A DNA stretch of 13,464 bases from Entophlyctis helioformis (lineage: Eukaryota; Chytridiomycota; Chytridiomycetes; Chytridiales; Chytriomycetaceae). Below, piece after piece: positions 1 through 7,027 of this stretch. The stretch's first letter is position 1. The number at the start of each line of letters is the position of its first letter. A program made the translations under genes and the position numbers. The stretch spans positions 1 to 13,464 of the forward strand of contig JAHLKH010000416.1 in the NCBI GenBank assembly GCA_025526915.1, read 5' to 3'. Under the pieces are notes generated by a model that saw nothing but the letters and a program-made list of their open reading frames with translations, did not search any database and was not told the DNA's origin.

Positions 1-1042
1 CATTCAGAATGCACGCCTAAGATTGCATCCAAACACGGCAGGAGCCATTACTCGTCACACTGGCCAGACAGGCTGTATTCAAGAAGGAGCGAGAAGAGCG
101 TGCAGAGAAGGCCAAGGACAAGACATCCAGGAGCACAAGAAGGATGCAGCAAGCAAGCCCGCCAGGCTCAATCTGAGGATGAGACACGGGCGTAAGTGGC
201 ATATGGCATGTCGCGTGCCTTGAATGTGCATGCTGACCAGCGCGTTCTTTGACAGATACGAGCGTGGTGAGAGATCAGCAATACGGCAGCTACTGGAAGC
301 AATCTATCGCCTGATTGCATTGCCAGTCATGACGGGTGCCGCTGCCATCCATGGCGACGAGCCAAGGCCGGTGGAGAGCACATATGATCGTCCTGAGCAG
401 ATTGTCAATCTCGCGGTATGGTTCTGGATTGGCATGTTGATCTGCGCGTCTGGTTTTGTGTGTGTTGACTTGTGCGATGTGCAGGAAATGCTCTCTGCCG
501 ACCCCATCTTTATGAAGGCGTTTGGATGCCAAGTCAAGACGCCGCCGGCGATGCAGACGCGCGGCACGGTCGTCGAGGACATTTTCAATGCCGTGTATCG
601 GTTTACGGCGACAATATGGCGTGCAGGACTCCTTCTGATTTGCCGCGATGATCGAGGAGCTGGTCATGCTCAAGCCAGACGCGCCGCTGCCACTTCAATA
701 CTGCGTCCTTGGAAAGCAACAAAGGACGGCATGACAACATTCTGTTTTGTCAATCCGGACGACCTTGGCAAGAAGGAGATCATGGGACTCCATGCCAATG
801 GGTGCATTCTGGACAGCAGCATCACCGCGTGGCAGATGTACGGCGATGGCCCACGCAGCAGCAACAGCAAGCTGCATCGGTATGGCGACTTGGTGACCCT
901 CGAGAGCGGCGCGGTGCTCAAGATCTGCGAGTTCAAGGCAGCCAAGAAGGCCACACAGCCTGATGACCACGGCGATCATGGCCACGACAACCACAACGAC
1001 CACGGCGACCACGACGACCACGGCGAGCATGATGAGCAGGGC
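1..1042 (+). CDS. Unrecognised coding stretch, probably the 5' part of the Fanzor gene (5' end outside window)
   Basis: I do not recognise a family here. Coding character is best in the frame running from 257 to 1042, with an intron at 192-255 (GTAAGT...TTTGACAG) and a second at 416-484 (GTATGG...GTGCAG, 69 nt, so the frame stays open if it is retained). Before 192 the coding-like frame changes twice (near 120 and 160) with no intron, from a Lys/Glu-rich piece (about 79-118) to an acidic piece that splices in phase to 256. At 639-731 another frame looks coding (higher third-position GC), reachable through a weak intron at 593-656, and must then shift back near 732. The segment at 733-960 reads as a plausible globular domain. 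It is followed at 960-1042 by a His/Asp-rich run. An intron at 1043-1091 (GTGTCA...TGTGCAG, 49 nt) joins it in phase to the next segment, so I infer one gene, but a separate upstream gene is possible. Confidence 0.4.
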
Positions 1043-1091
1043 GTGTCACTCGAGATCTCCTTGCACAATGTGCCCGAGCTGGCCTGTGCAG

Positions 1092-4000
1092 CCTGACGAC
1101 CTGGACACCCATGACGAGCATGATGTGCACAATCCAGCAGCAGCATCCAGCGGCACCGATGCTCCACCACAAGCTGTCCAGCGACCAGCCGTCCTAACAG
1201 CAAATGACCTACTCGCGGCGCTCACCAGCAGCGGTCTCTGGCGGCGAGGGAGCTGTCACGATGCTTCTGCGATACCTCGCGTACATTCTGGCAGGTGGCC
1301 AGATGGTCAAGCCACGAGCGCACAAGCATGTTGTGCACTCATGGCTTGTTACGACCATGCAGATGATCATTCATTGCACTTGGACAAAGGGGATGATGCA
1401 GGACAGCATGGCGCAGATGCAGGAGGATGCAGCCAAGCTGCGCATGTTTTGCAATGGATGCAGACACGGCGGCCGCAACGCAGCAGGCAGCCACAATCCA
1501 GGCGTCTGAGATGCCAGGATGACGCGGTGCAGATGGAGGCAGACGCCATGGATGGCGTTTTGCCTGGCATTCTTGACAACAGCTTATGTGCAGATGCCAT
1601 GACCAGTATCTTCAGCAATCTGGCCAGGGATATCTGCGGCACCCTCTCTACGCATTTTATCTCGAACCAGTTGATGCTGGTCGACGCGGCGATCCACCGC
1701 CTGGTTCCTGGCTCGTCTGCCGAGGATGTCAAGAAATGGCGCGAGATCATGTCCAAGGCCGCCAATGTTGCCAAGGCCGCGAAGGCTGCAAAGGACGCCA
1801 AGGATGCCAAGGCCGCCAAGGCGCCAAGACTGCTGCTGCCAAGGCTGCCAAGGCCGCCAAGCTTGCTGCCGCCAAGGACGCCACACCACAAGCCACTCTG
1901 GATGCCGCCTCTCCCACAGCAGGCTGCAAGCGGCCTGCATCAAGCTCTTCATCGGCCACCAACAGCGCCAAACCCAAGAGGCAACGGCGCAGGAAGGACA
2001 AGGCTACCACCAAGGACGGCACGCCTGGCACAACACAAGCCACAGAGGGCCAGGACGACGCTGTGCTACCGCAAGCATTGCACAAGCTCATGGCGGTCGA
2101 GTGCAACGCGTCATTGTCGCCGGCAGGAAAGTTCAAGCAACTGCGAGATCTCGCAGGCTCATCCCTCAAGCTGTACCCGCAGCCGGCGAGCCGCGATCCC
2201 TTTGTCCTCATCACAGAAACCACCCTCTTTTGGGCTGTCATGGGGGCAAAGAAGGATCGCGTACCCACCAAGGACAATGCTGTCTTGCAAGCATTGGAGA
2301 GAGCAGCTCCTTGCTGCACTCAGTAGGTCGCATTGCCTGTAAATGCCATGCTTGTATGATATGATGCTGACTCTGCACTTTTATCGTAGACTACAAAGAT
2401 GAAGACTTGACACTCGAGTCGCCAAATGACACGATCGAGAAGGCGTTTAGTGCAAGCCGTGAGGTTTGTGTTCTTGACATCCTCCTCCCTGGACTCTGTT
2501 TGAGCGAGCGACGCTTCCAGACTCCTGCAGAGGCCAAAGCGCGAATGGACGCGGTTGCCAAGGCCACAGCCGATGCCACAGCCAAGGCAACGCGAGAGGC
2601 CGACGAGCAGGGTCTGGATGGCAAGGAGCGCGAGGAGCATATCAAGGCTGCGATTGATGCCGCGTGTCCAGCAAGGCCAATCAAGACAATCAGACTGGGC
2701 AGCATCATGACGGATGGATACAGCATCTACCAGCTGGCTCTCGATGGCCGCACAAACCGTCCAGAGTCGCCTCGCAGTATGTGGCGTGCTTGGATGCTTT
2801 GGTGCACACGTTGATTCTGACCACTGCCTTGATCTACAGATCCCAACGCTGCGTCTTCAGGCGAGCAGCCCAGTATTTTTGATGATGGAGGCCTTGGTGG
2901 CCTTGGCGGCTGGAATAATTGCTTGGATGATGGCTTGGATGGCGAATGTGAGTTGTTGTGCCAATCCAGACGCACACTTGTTGTCCACACTGACTGACAT
3001 GCCATCCACAGCCGCCGATCCAGCCGACCCGTCAGCCGCCAAGCCATACACGCCCAATCCTGTAAGCCACTTGCATGCTAAACTCGTGCATTGGTGCACA
3101 TGCATTGCACATTCCTCACTCATGCCATGGCATGACAGGGCAAGCGCAACTTTTACGCTTCTCAGCGACTGCCCAACATTGTCAACGCCAACAATCTGTT
3201 CACTGACCAAGGCTACCAGACTGTTCGCGTTGTCAGCTTTGACTGGGGCAAGCGGTACCTGTATGGCGCGTCCAGCATGCTGGTCGATCTCAGAGACTTT
3301 TCGTATACGCTCGAGTCCAACTACGTGCTCTCCTCTGGCGTATTTCATGCTGAGCGTGACCTTCAGCGGTGGTATGCATGCAATGACTCTGCCACGCGCA
3401 CTCTTGACCAGATCAACTCACAGAGCCTGCCTCTTGTGCCAGGTTTAACAATCGATATGCCAAGGCAGCGGACATCCAGGCGGCCATTGCATTCAAGACC
3501 GCAAAGCATGCCGATCCAGGCGTCTCAGCAGGCGAGAGAGCCTTTTGGGATCTGCGCTGCCATGCGTACTGCTCGCCATTCCTGAATGCACGGGTATGTT
3601 TTCTCTGGTTCTGGATGCCCATTGGCATGGCCGCCATGCTGCTTGATCGCCTGCTGATCACACTGGATGGCATGGCATGGCATGGCATTCCACAGAAGGT
3701 CAAGGCCAAGCGGTTCACCATGCGCAGCAACAGCATGTCTATTCGCGGAAACGCTCTTGAGGGCATCATGAAGCTGGCAGGATCGACCACTGGCAAGCGC
3801 GCATCCCGATGCATCTCAAGGCCTCCCTGTCGACCGAACAAAGTTGACAGAGGACAACATTCCCGTTGTGTGGGCATTTGGCATCGACTTTACAGGCCAA
3901 GGTGGCCGGCATGCTGTGTTTGAGAGGTTTCTCATCAGGCATCTGCGGTCGTCTGGATATGCCTATGTGCGTCTGATGCCATCCATCCATCCATCCATCC

Positions 4001-4618
4001 ATCCATCTGTGCACCAACTGACACACGATCATGCACACGCACACACACACACAGATCTACCGCTGCAACGAGAACCTGACCAGCCAGATGTGCCCGCAGT
4101 GCAAGCAGCGGATCCCATACGAGAACCGCACCAACCTGCGACGCTACGAGTGCATACCATGCAAGACCGTCTACCACCGAGACGTGCTTGGAGCCACCAA
4201 CATCGGGATGGTCGCACTGTGGCATCTGCTCTATGGACAACGGCCGCTCTACTTGACGCACACCAAAGCCGACAGCAATCCAGCCACGCCAGAGCACCTC
4301 AACAGCATCGCGGCAATGCATATCTCCATCCAGGATTGTGCACGAAATGCTCCGTCTGTTGTCCCACAGCCTCAAACGCGGAAACACTTCAAGTCGCATG
4401 TGGCCTCATGGGACCAGATCAGCCTGCCGTCCTGTGGCGTTCAAGACGTGCTGTACAGCAGCGTTCAAGACACGGTCCATCCGTCGTCCAGCTGCGACCA
4501 GCACGCAGACAGCCTGCCCTCAAGTCACCTGTCACTCATTCCACACAGTGACTTGTTTGACCACCAACACTTTGAATCGGGGCACCTCCCGATCGACCTA
4601 ACGGGTCACTTTTTCTAA
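1092..4618 (+). CDS. Fanzor: eukaryotic TnpB-like RNA-guided DNA endonuclease, with uncompensated frame changes (possible pseudogene)
   Basis: Fanzors are RuvC-fold nucleases related to TnpB/Cas12 that cut DNA guided by an RNA from the 3' end of their own locus. Exons I infer: 1092 to about 1175, about 1232-1294, 1363-2322, 2390-2776, 2840-2947, 3012-3061, 3139-3371, 3443-3593, 3696-3966, 4055-4618. From 2390 to about 3780 and from 4055 to the TAA at 4616-4618 all splice phases agree. Catalytic signs: RuvC-I Asp at 3241 in VVSFDWGKRYLYG; Gly at 3880 in VVWAFGIDF, where TnpB carries Glu; the shifted Glu at 4070 just before LTS; zinc-ribbon Cys at 4091, 4100, 4151, 4160; RuvC-III Asp at 4181 in HRDVLGATN. 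The N-terminal half has an Ala/Lys repeat (about 1745-1880) and a basic stretch KPKRQRRRKDK (1970-2002), a likely nuclear signal. Frame changes near 1452, 1515, 1828, 2298 and 3780-3843 lack a usable intron. The catalytic half alone is about 587 residues, so the whole protein would be large. Confidence 0.82.
3844..4207 (+). other. Fanzor RuvC-II / zinc ribbon / RuvC-III block
   Basis: This is the most diagnostic part of the Fanzor gene. The exon ending at 3966 and the exon starting at 4055 are joined across an 88-nt intron (GTGCGT...ACACAG) at phase 0. The order is hydrophobic strand, Gly in place of the TnpB Glu (3880), helix, strand, Glu (4070) in NENLTSQMCPQC, a C-x2-C pair, 16 residues, a second C-x2-C pair, then HRD. 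That spacing and the Glu-x2-TS-x2-C motif follow the OrfB zinc-ribbon pattern, in the arrangement reported for Fanzors. Confidence 0.85.
3979..4054 (+). repeat. Two microsatellites inside a Fanzor intron
   Basis: Seven copies of CCAT occupy 3979-4006, and an AC-rich dinucleotide run (about 4033-4052) leads directly into the acceptor AG at 4053-4054. The AC run replaces the usual pyrimidine tract. The repeats make this intron (88 nt) longer than most of its neighbours. Confidence 0.85.
4576..4614 (+). other. Two tandem hairpins and T-run at the Fanzor 3' end (candidate guide-RNA scaffold segment)
   Basis: ATCGGG (4576-4581) pairs with CCCGAT (4588-4593) around a six-base loop. One base later GACC (4595-4598) pairs with GGTC (4604-4607) around five bases. 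Five T residues follow at 4610-4614, and the stop codon is at 4616. In TnpB and Fanzor loci the guide RNA overlaps or follows the 3' end of the gene, so the position suits an omega/fRNA scaffold. It could also be chance structure in coding DNA. Confidence 0.3.
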
Positions 4619-4844
4619 CGATAAAGGTGAGCACCTTGTGGATGTGCCTCGCCTGTCTGTCGTCGCATGCTCGTTGCTGACTCGAACCTGCCATCGTGTG
4701 ATGTGCGGGCTTGCATTCGACGCCTCTTGCGACGAATTGTATTCCAAAATGCTTGGTAATTGTATGAATATCGGGCCACAAGAGCGAGCGATTGCGCAAC
4801 TAAACTCAACAACAACCACTTGAACGCTGTTGCTGCTGCCGCCC
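4619..4844. other. Intergenic: Fanzor 3' flank and NKAP 5' flank
   Basis: There is no gene here by my reading. Short ORFs on both strands have no recognisable content. The stretch at about 4735-4775 is AT-richer than its surroundings. The NKAP promoter and leader should lie here, and so may the right end of the Fanzor element and any guide sequence. I could not identify a terminal repeat or target-site duplication. Confidence 0.5.

Positions 4845-7027
<2,183 letters not shown>

Follow-up and report, generated by a model that had tools for sequence, protein, structure and literature searches.

The window, a 13,464-nt stretch of DNA from the chytrid Entophlyctis helioformis, carries at its left one decayed, left-cut copy of a DNA transposon, followed by host genes that a Pfam scan assigned to NKAP, eL33 (L35Ae) and a RIO kinase. 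The element is defined by its ends, its copy number, the target duplications that flank it and the exon structure of its C-terminal coding part. We consider it probable that this transposon, with its 23-bp inverted ends and 8-bp duplications, encodes a fusion of ~2,000 residues in which a FEN/EXO1-like 5' nuclease is joined to a TnpB/Fanzor-type RuvC nuclease, the RuvC part likely being RNA-guided. The original prediction had placed a Fanzor gene, resident beside housekeeping genes, at positions 1092..4618. That span was too short, as homology to the element begins at the window's first bases, which are the start of the contig, and the element ends at 4777. Fuller copies continue for several kb beyond the left edge of the window, and the element size is 8-10 kb; in the window copy the left end and the FEN-like part were lost with the contig end.

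The copy in the window

The features of the window copy and its right flank are as follows; exons E2, E3, E4 and E6 come from an exon model together with paralogue projection. L and C numbers denote individual copies.

1..2322, + strand: decayed coding region 5' of the RuvC exons, the middle part of the putative long reading frame; nucleotide and peptide homology to L010, L022, L024 and L017
2322, + strand: exon end with donor GTAGGT, from the exon model of the window copy
2390..2776, + strand: exon E2, holding a TDG segment ahead of RuvC-I
2840..2947, + strand: exon E3, an acidic linker whose length differs among copies
3012..3061, + strand: exon E4
3139..3371, + strand: exon E5, RuvC-I, with catalytic Asp 3241 in a DWG motif; strongly mosaic among copies
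3443..3593, + strand: exon E6
3696..3966, + strand: exon E7, RuvC-II region, 271 nt, frame broken in the window copy
4055..4618, + strand: exon E8, with alternative Glu 4070, zinc-ribbon Cys 4091/4100/4151/4160, RuvC-III Asp 4181 and stop TAA 4616-4618
4619..4777, + strand: conserved non-coding right end, candidate guide-RNA scaffold
4755..4777, + strand: right terminal inverted repeat, 23 bp, ending ATCGGGCC; 19/23 bases equal the left end of other copies
4778..4785, + strand: 8 bp of flank next to the element (ACAAGAGC), where a target duplication is expected from the other copies; its left partner lies off the contig
4845..6839, + strand: host gene NKAP, 5' end and part of the coding region; Pfam Nkap_C 6.2e-38 on 6357-6839, ATG 4845 read from the sequence

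The three acidic RuvC residues and the four zinc-ribbon Cys named in the original prediction are all present and are kept among paralogues. The window codons are GAC for Asp 3241, GAG for Glu 4070 and GAC for Asp 4181. In an alignment of the window with 20 other copies, Glu 4070, Asp 4181 and the four Cys are kept in 21/21, and the first Asp is kept in 18/18 copies having the position (three of the 21 are without it). A profile search, of the kind that the original prediction had proposed as a check, matched the zinc ribbon to PF07282 above the cut-off (3.6e-9, 37.1 vs 26.3 bits); in the genome-wide search the same match scored 40.7 bits.

A large, intron-rich coding region had been foreseen, and this was borne out. 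Phases agree at the junctions of the seven C-terminal exons (2390-4618), and the junctions are backed by paralogues. Projected onto 20 other copies, every exon present is followed by a GT donor, with the exception of L025, which is cut off at that point. AG acceptors are lacking, with a difference in length, in L019 (second exon), in four copies (third exon) and in three copies (fourth exon), and are kept in all other cases. A larger set was drawn up for the RuvC-I exon (53 of 60 copies tried, one having been dropped for length and six having no match), and in it the introns on either side of exon 3139-3371 begin with GT and end with AG in 53/53 copies. The proposed seven exons stand as junctions but not as a continuous frame. 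Exon 3696-3966 measures 271 nt in the window vs 261 or 270 in 15/18 other copies with the whole exon, and because the extra base shifts the frame into a stop, the window copy is broken. Further upstream, the window peptide 5' of the RuvC exons is scattered over several frames; L010 has one 563-residue open reading frame for part of the same region. In projection, the C-terminal exons are open in L022 (474 residues), L009 (580) and L010 (549), and most other copies hit an early stop.

The two nuclease parts and their linkage

The claim that the RuvC protein is a Fanzor held in part. RuvC-I reads DWG (of 53 copies, all have the D, 52 the W and 52 the G), whereas published Fanzors have DPG at this position almost exclusively (PMC10711439), and this counts against Fanzor membership. 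Other features point towards it. The RuvC-II Glu of Fanzors is displaced to six residues ahead of the zinc finger (PMC10711439); the sequence here is E-N-L-T-S-Q-M-C, with the Glu and first Cys in 21/21 aligned copies. The TnpB/Fanzor motif of Bao and Jurka, D-X(125,275)-[TS][TS]XX-[C4 zinc finger]-X(5,50)-RD (PMC3627910), is found in L010 as D226, T415-S416, C419/422/439/442 and R448-D449, and the same catalytic and Cys codons are in the window. NF040570 (guided_TnpB) was matched by 3/3 members, the best at 1.8e-6; the first member scored 27.5 bits against a cut-off of 100 and aligned over its C-terminal end only. A sequence-profile search found no Fanzor structure, and the predicted RuvC structure was too poor a model for use. 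Judged by its motifs, the RuvC part belongs to the TnpB/Fanzor type; because DWG speaks against Fanzor, and the Glu position, C4 ribbon and Bao and Jurka motif speak for it, it is best called Fanzor-like.

Left of the window's start, fuller copies contain coding sequence for a FEN/EXO1-type 5' nuclease domain, whose acidic residues are present, so that the catalytic residues of both nucleases lie within one element. Seven acidic positions, which we take to be the metal-binding acids of the FEN/EXO1/XPG family, were followed in eight proteins: five are kept in 8/8, the others in 7/7 and 6/7 rows with a letter. Across four copies compared in a separate alignment all are kept, save for one E that is K in one copy. 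At E<=1, the Pfam family XPG_I_2 matched 8/8 members of the FEN-part set (best 1.9e-4); scores lay below its cut-off of 24.2 bits for L024 (17.6 bits) and P0007 (15.5 bits), and L019 gave no match. A structural model of moderate quality aligned with PDB entries 7mxx, 5v0b and 5hnk at 10-20% structural-alignment identity, and a 5'-nuclease fold is tentatively predicted for this part. The FEN-like part shares its acidic residues, and possibly its core fold, with the 5' nucleases FEN1, EXO1 and XPG. To our knowledge, no FEN1/EXO1/XPG nuclease is part of any Fanzor protein. A fusion of a Fanzor with a FEN-type nuclease was not found in the literature searched, which was mostly without subscription papers, one passage being ambiguous on this point, and the word XPG is absent from the main text of PMC3627910.

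In copy C140, a splice model of 18 exons runs from ATG to stop through both nuclease domains and gives 1,993 residues. The script used joins homologous peptides by GT-AG introns and forbids in-frame stops, so that a path always exists; the C140 path is distinguished by keeping all introns to <=160 nt and all exons to >=20 nt, which the paths of L024, L009 and C40 do not. In this path, 1,667/1,973 codons similar to reference peptides lie in frame. In pairwise comparison, conserved peptide blocks cover a large part of the sequence that separates the FEN-like from the RuvC part. Over the alignable parts of C140, L024 and L009, the ratio of non-synonymous to synonymous substitution rates (dN/dS) is 0.26-0.40 in the FEN-like and middle parts and 0.59-0.63 in the RuvC part.

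A serious rival is that the element carries two adjacent, separately transcribed genes, one FEN/EXO1-like and one for the Fanzor-like RuvC protein, and that no fusion protein is made. Several results weigh against fusion and for two genes. A link of ~1.1 kb in C140 (-5450 to -4330) is mostly without peptide support and is the weakest stretch of the model, and a codon-position test gave little third-position excess in most middle windows. A 1,015-residue FEN-plus-middle query found no protein of ~558-1,776 aa among 7,995 candidates scored, and the annotated E. helioformis proteins recovered are one-sided, with 242-520 aa on the FEN-like side and 272-332 aa on the RuvC side. Against two genes stand the peptide blocks that fill much of the link and the ordinary introns with which the C140 model crosses it. 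We regard the two-gene arrangement as a tentative alternative of real weight, and a single reading frame for both nucleases, as predicted from the spliced sequence, as the likelier one.

Copies, termini and movement

A genome-wide search for PF07282 gave 150 scored matches, 150/150 above the cut-off, out of 205 candidates in 29.6 Mb. Twenty of these places were retrieved and compared with the window. In 19/20 of them and in the window the right end is near-identical, with variation at a few positions, and the sequence that follows is not shared. The 23-base right-end pattern has 197 matches in the genome at <=3 mismatches, compared to 0 for the reversed control pattern; the left-end pattern has 86, two of which are right ends read backwards. 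The termini are inverted repeats of 23 bp with 19/23 bases alike.

Both ends were read in 21 elements, of which C116, C18, C103, L009 and L012, with second-type left ends not fully delimited, were set aside. A target duplication flanks 11/16 informative elements and is 8 bp long in ten. It agrees at 8/8 bases in six (C5a, C138, C12, L024, C172 and C5b, the last if its right end is two bases longer) and at 7/8 in four (C67, C35b, L015 and C436, the last two at one duplicated site); the eleventh, at C40, is 10 bp and lies beyond a 47-bp extension. The C5b shift, the odd first bases of C172 and the C40 match were judged by eye. No target duplication was found at the other five informative elements (C239, C49, C198, C140 and L022), and the left end of C168 was not captured. 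No target-adjacent motif was seen by eye before the duplication in ten left flanks. Since L012, L023, C116, C18 and C103 have a common left flank, the true end of these second-type elements lies further left; all five, together with L009, were left out of the count of duplications.

About 47 further bp precede unique DNA at the right end in 12/20 places (the 19 retrieved ones and the window), and at C40 this extension moved with the element, because the target duplication lies beyond it. Among all 37 right ends read, the extension (TTTGCCGGCGGTTTGCCGGC...CCCCTC or variants, some shortened) was seen in 17: L009, L012, L013, L014, L016, L018, L019, L020, L021, L022, L025, L026, C40, C116, C18, C103 and C140. 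A further repeat, rich in CACGTG and running from GTAGCACTGGG to ACCGAGCATCCGTTACA, was found within or next to several copies (L012, L020, L022). Two insertions are same-oriented and just ahead of likely host start codons. One is the window copy (flank 4778-4845), where 67 bp separate the element end at 4777 from the putative NKAP ATG at 4845; the other is L012, whose right flank has a frame that resembles phosphoserine aminotransferase. L015 (C35) and L066 (C436) are short, internally deleted elements at the same insertion site, which is thus duplicated or allelic in the assembly.

Retroposition was considered for L014, L015, L027 and L025, which have the common right end with the left broken off. 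It was rejected for L015 and L012 as internal deletions, the left part of L015 being the family's left end and L012 carrying the other left-end type; introns are, moreover, retained in the DNA copies. Protein relatives of the RuvC part (five matches) and of the FEN-like part (eight matches) all came from E. helioformis, in searches that each scored only the ~8,000 candidates sharing most words.

The element may move by cut and paste, with a transposase supplied in trans. Pfam recognised no transposase in the pieces of the element scanned; a divergent one may lie in the middle part. The KDZ group makes 8-bp duplications, and KDZ pieces gave four matches on three contigs of the genome (C334, C271, C396). 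The C334 locus was rejected as the source, having no related ends within the 6.5 kb read. A search for hAT transposases was silent in controls too and carries no information on absence. The KDZ results, the lack of another recognised transposase in the scanned pieces and the departure of DWG from Fanzors would fit a different reading, in which the long protein is itself the transposase and its RuvC (RNase H-fold) or FEN-like part cuts the inverted ends with no RNA guide. We think this improbable, as the C4 ribbon and displaced Glu are typical of RNA-guided relatives, and some Fanzor elements have terminal inverted repeats and target-site duplications yet, as described in PMC3627910, encode no transposase.

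A resident, domesticated nuclear Fanzor gene, suggested by the introns and by the neighbours NKAP, eL33 and RIO kinase, is ruled out for practical purposes by the common right end, the ~200 right ends in the genome and the broken frame of the window copy. The host-type introns, from which some time spent in a nucleus had been argued, belong to the element and travel with it, those around RuvC-I being intact in every copy compared, and so are uninformative on long residence at this site.

A candidate guide RNA and exchange among copies

The 159 nt between the stop codon and the flank are well conserved, and over 27 copies the columns of the last 110 nt average 81% identity. Helix counts in a covariation analysis of the right end were not above control. 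A consensus fold of the right end was computed, and neither it nor the covariation gave proof of a guide RNA. One hairpin (alignment columns 61-83), paired in 81% of cells, was equalled by shuffles and was rejected as evidence for RNA; a scan of the window against Rfam gave no family at or above its gathering score. In SpuFz1, the Fanzor1 of the chytrid Spizellomyces punctatus, the right-end guide RNA takes the flank as guide (PMC10432273). By analogy, the 159-nt right end may be a guide-RNA scaffold and the adjoining flank the guide.

On our preferred reading, that of a fusion with an RNA-guided RuvC part, a transcript of the right end would extend into the flank and the adjoining target sequence would serve as guide. 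The RuvC part could then cut matching sites that lack the element; once the 5' nuclease had trimmed the ends, the element would be copied back during repair. Such copy-back repair would also feed exchange among copies.

Copies of the element are mosaics. In C140, L024 and L009, synonymous divergence (dS) is 0.8-1.7 in the FEN-like and middle parts vs 0.23-0.27 in the RuvC part. C40 (L069) and C140 (L070) show the reverse pattern, with 95% identity between their 5' parts against 75% between their 3' parts, which on sequence comparison indicates that whole modules have been swapped between copies. On a finer scale, the RuvC-I exon is assembled from short alternative blocks in many combinations. 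Its diversity over the 53 copies (window region 3062-3593) is 0.21 at fourfold sites and 0.16 at first and second positions, compared to only 0.053 and 0.044 in the interiors of the flanking introns; bootstrap ranges are 0.138-0.283 at 40 fourfold sites and 0.025-0.089 and 0.016-0.079 for the introns. All four combinations occur in 1,813/4,005 pairs of common sites. This mosaic pattern implies an exchange of short blocks, with variants persisting in the exon that are absent from the introns. Any one of three causes could explain why exon diversity exceeds that of introns: diversifying selection on the protein, constraint on the introns, or escape from a silencing mechanism that targets spliced RNA. 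A bolder interpretation, which we hold to be rather unlikely, is a selfish element with its own two-step gene-conversion enzyme, a guided RuvC cutter fused to an EXO1/FEN-like resecting nuclease, that shuffles ~200 copies and leaves the nuclease exons diverse and the introns not.

One close parallel is SpuFz1, which also has a chytrid host, inverted ends and a conserved 3' non-coding stretch up to a variable flank, and which likewise occurs in many copies with and without the gene (42 SpuFz1 loci plus 134 without gene; PMC10432273). SpuFz1 differs in measuring ~2.1 kb, with a single open reading frame and 30-nt ends (PMC10432273), compared to 8-10 kb and many exons here; the FEN-like domain and DWG in place of DPG also set the present element apart from SpuFz1 as described there, and here the guide RNA is a candidate. 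The Fanzor1 elements ROr-4, PBl-3 and MCi-4 share terminal inverted repeats and target-site duplications and, as described in PMC3627910, the lack of a transposase, and MCi-2 resembles the present mosaics in that its 5' part varies and its 3' part is uniform; their duplications are 9 bp in the first three and 11-12 bp in MCi-2, compared to 8 bp here (PMC3627910). Multi-exon Fanzors have already been described, with five and ten exons in Chlamydomonas. Nor is a high copy number new. CMe-1A, a Fanzor element of the red alga Cyanidioschyzon merolae, has ~150 copies in one genome, and differs from the present element in being ~3 kb with no terminal inverted repeats (PMC3627910); SpuFz1-type loci are numerous too.

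The Fanzors described in the cited papers act as single nucleases. If the present reading is true, nature has paired, or even fused, a Fanzor-like cutter and a 5' end-processing nuclease within one element, and this would illustrate a way in which elements of this kind might direct the repair of the cuts they make. How they might do so is an open question in TnpB/Fanzor research and also matters in practice to genome editing. The ~200 right ends in one small chytrid genome, some on open copies and others on broken or internally deleted ones, provide a resource for the study of guide use and recombination.

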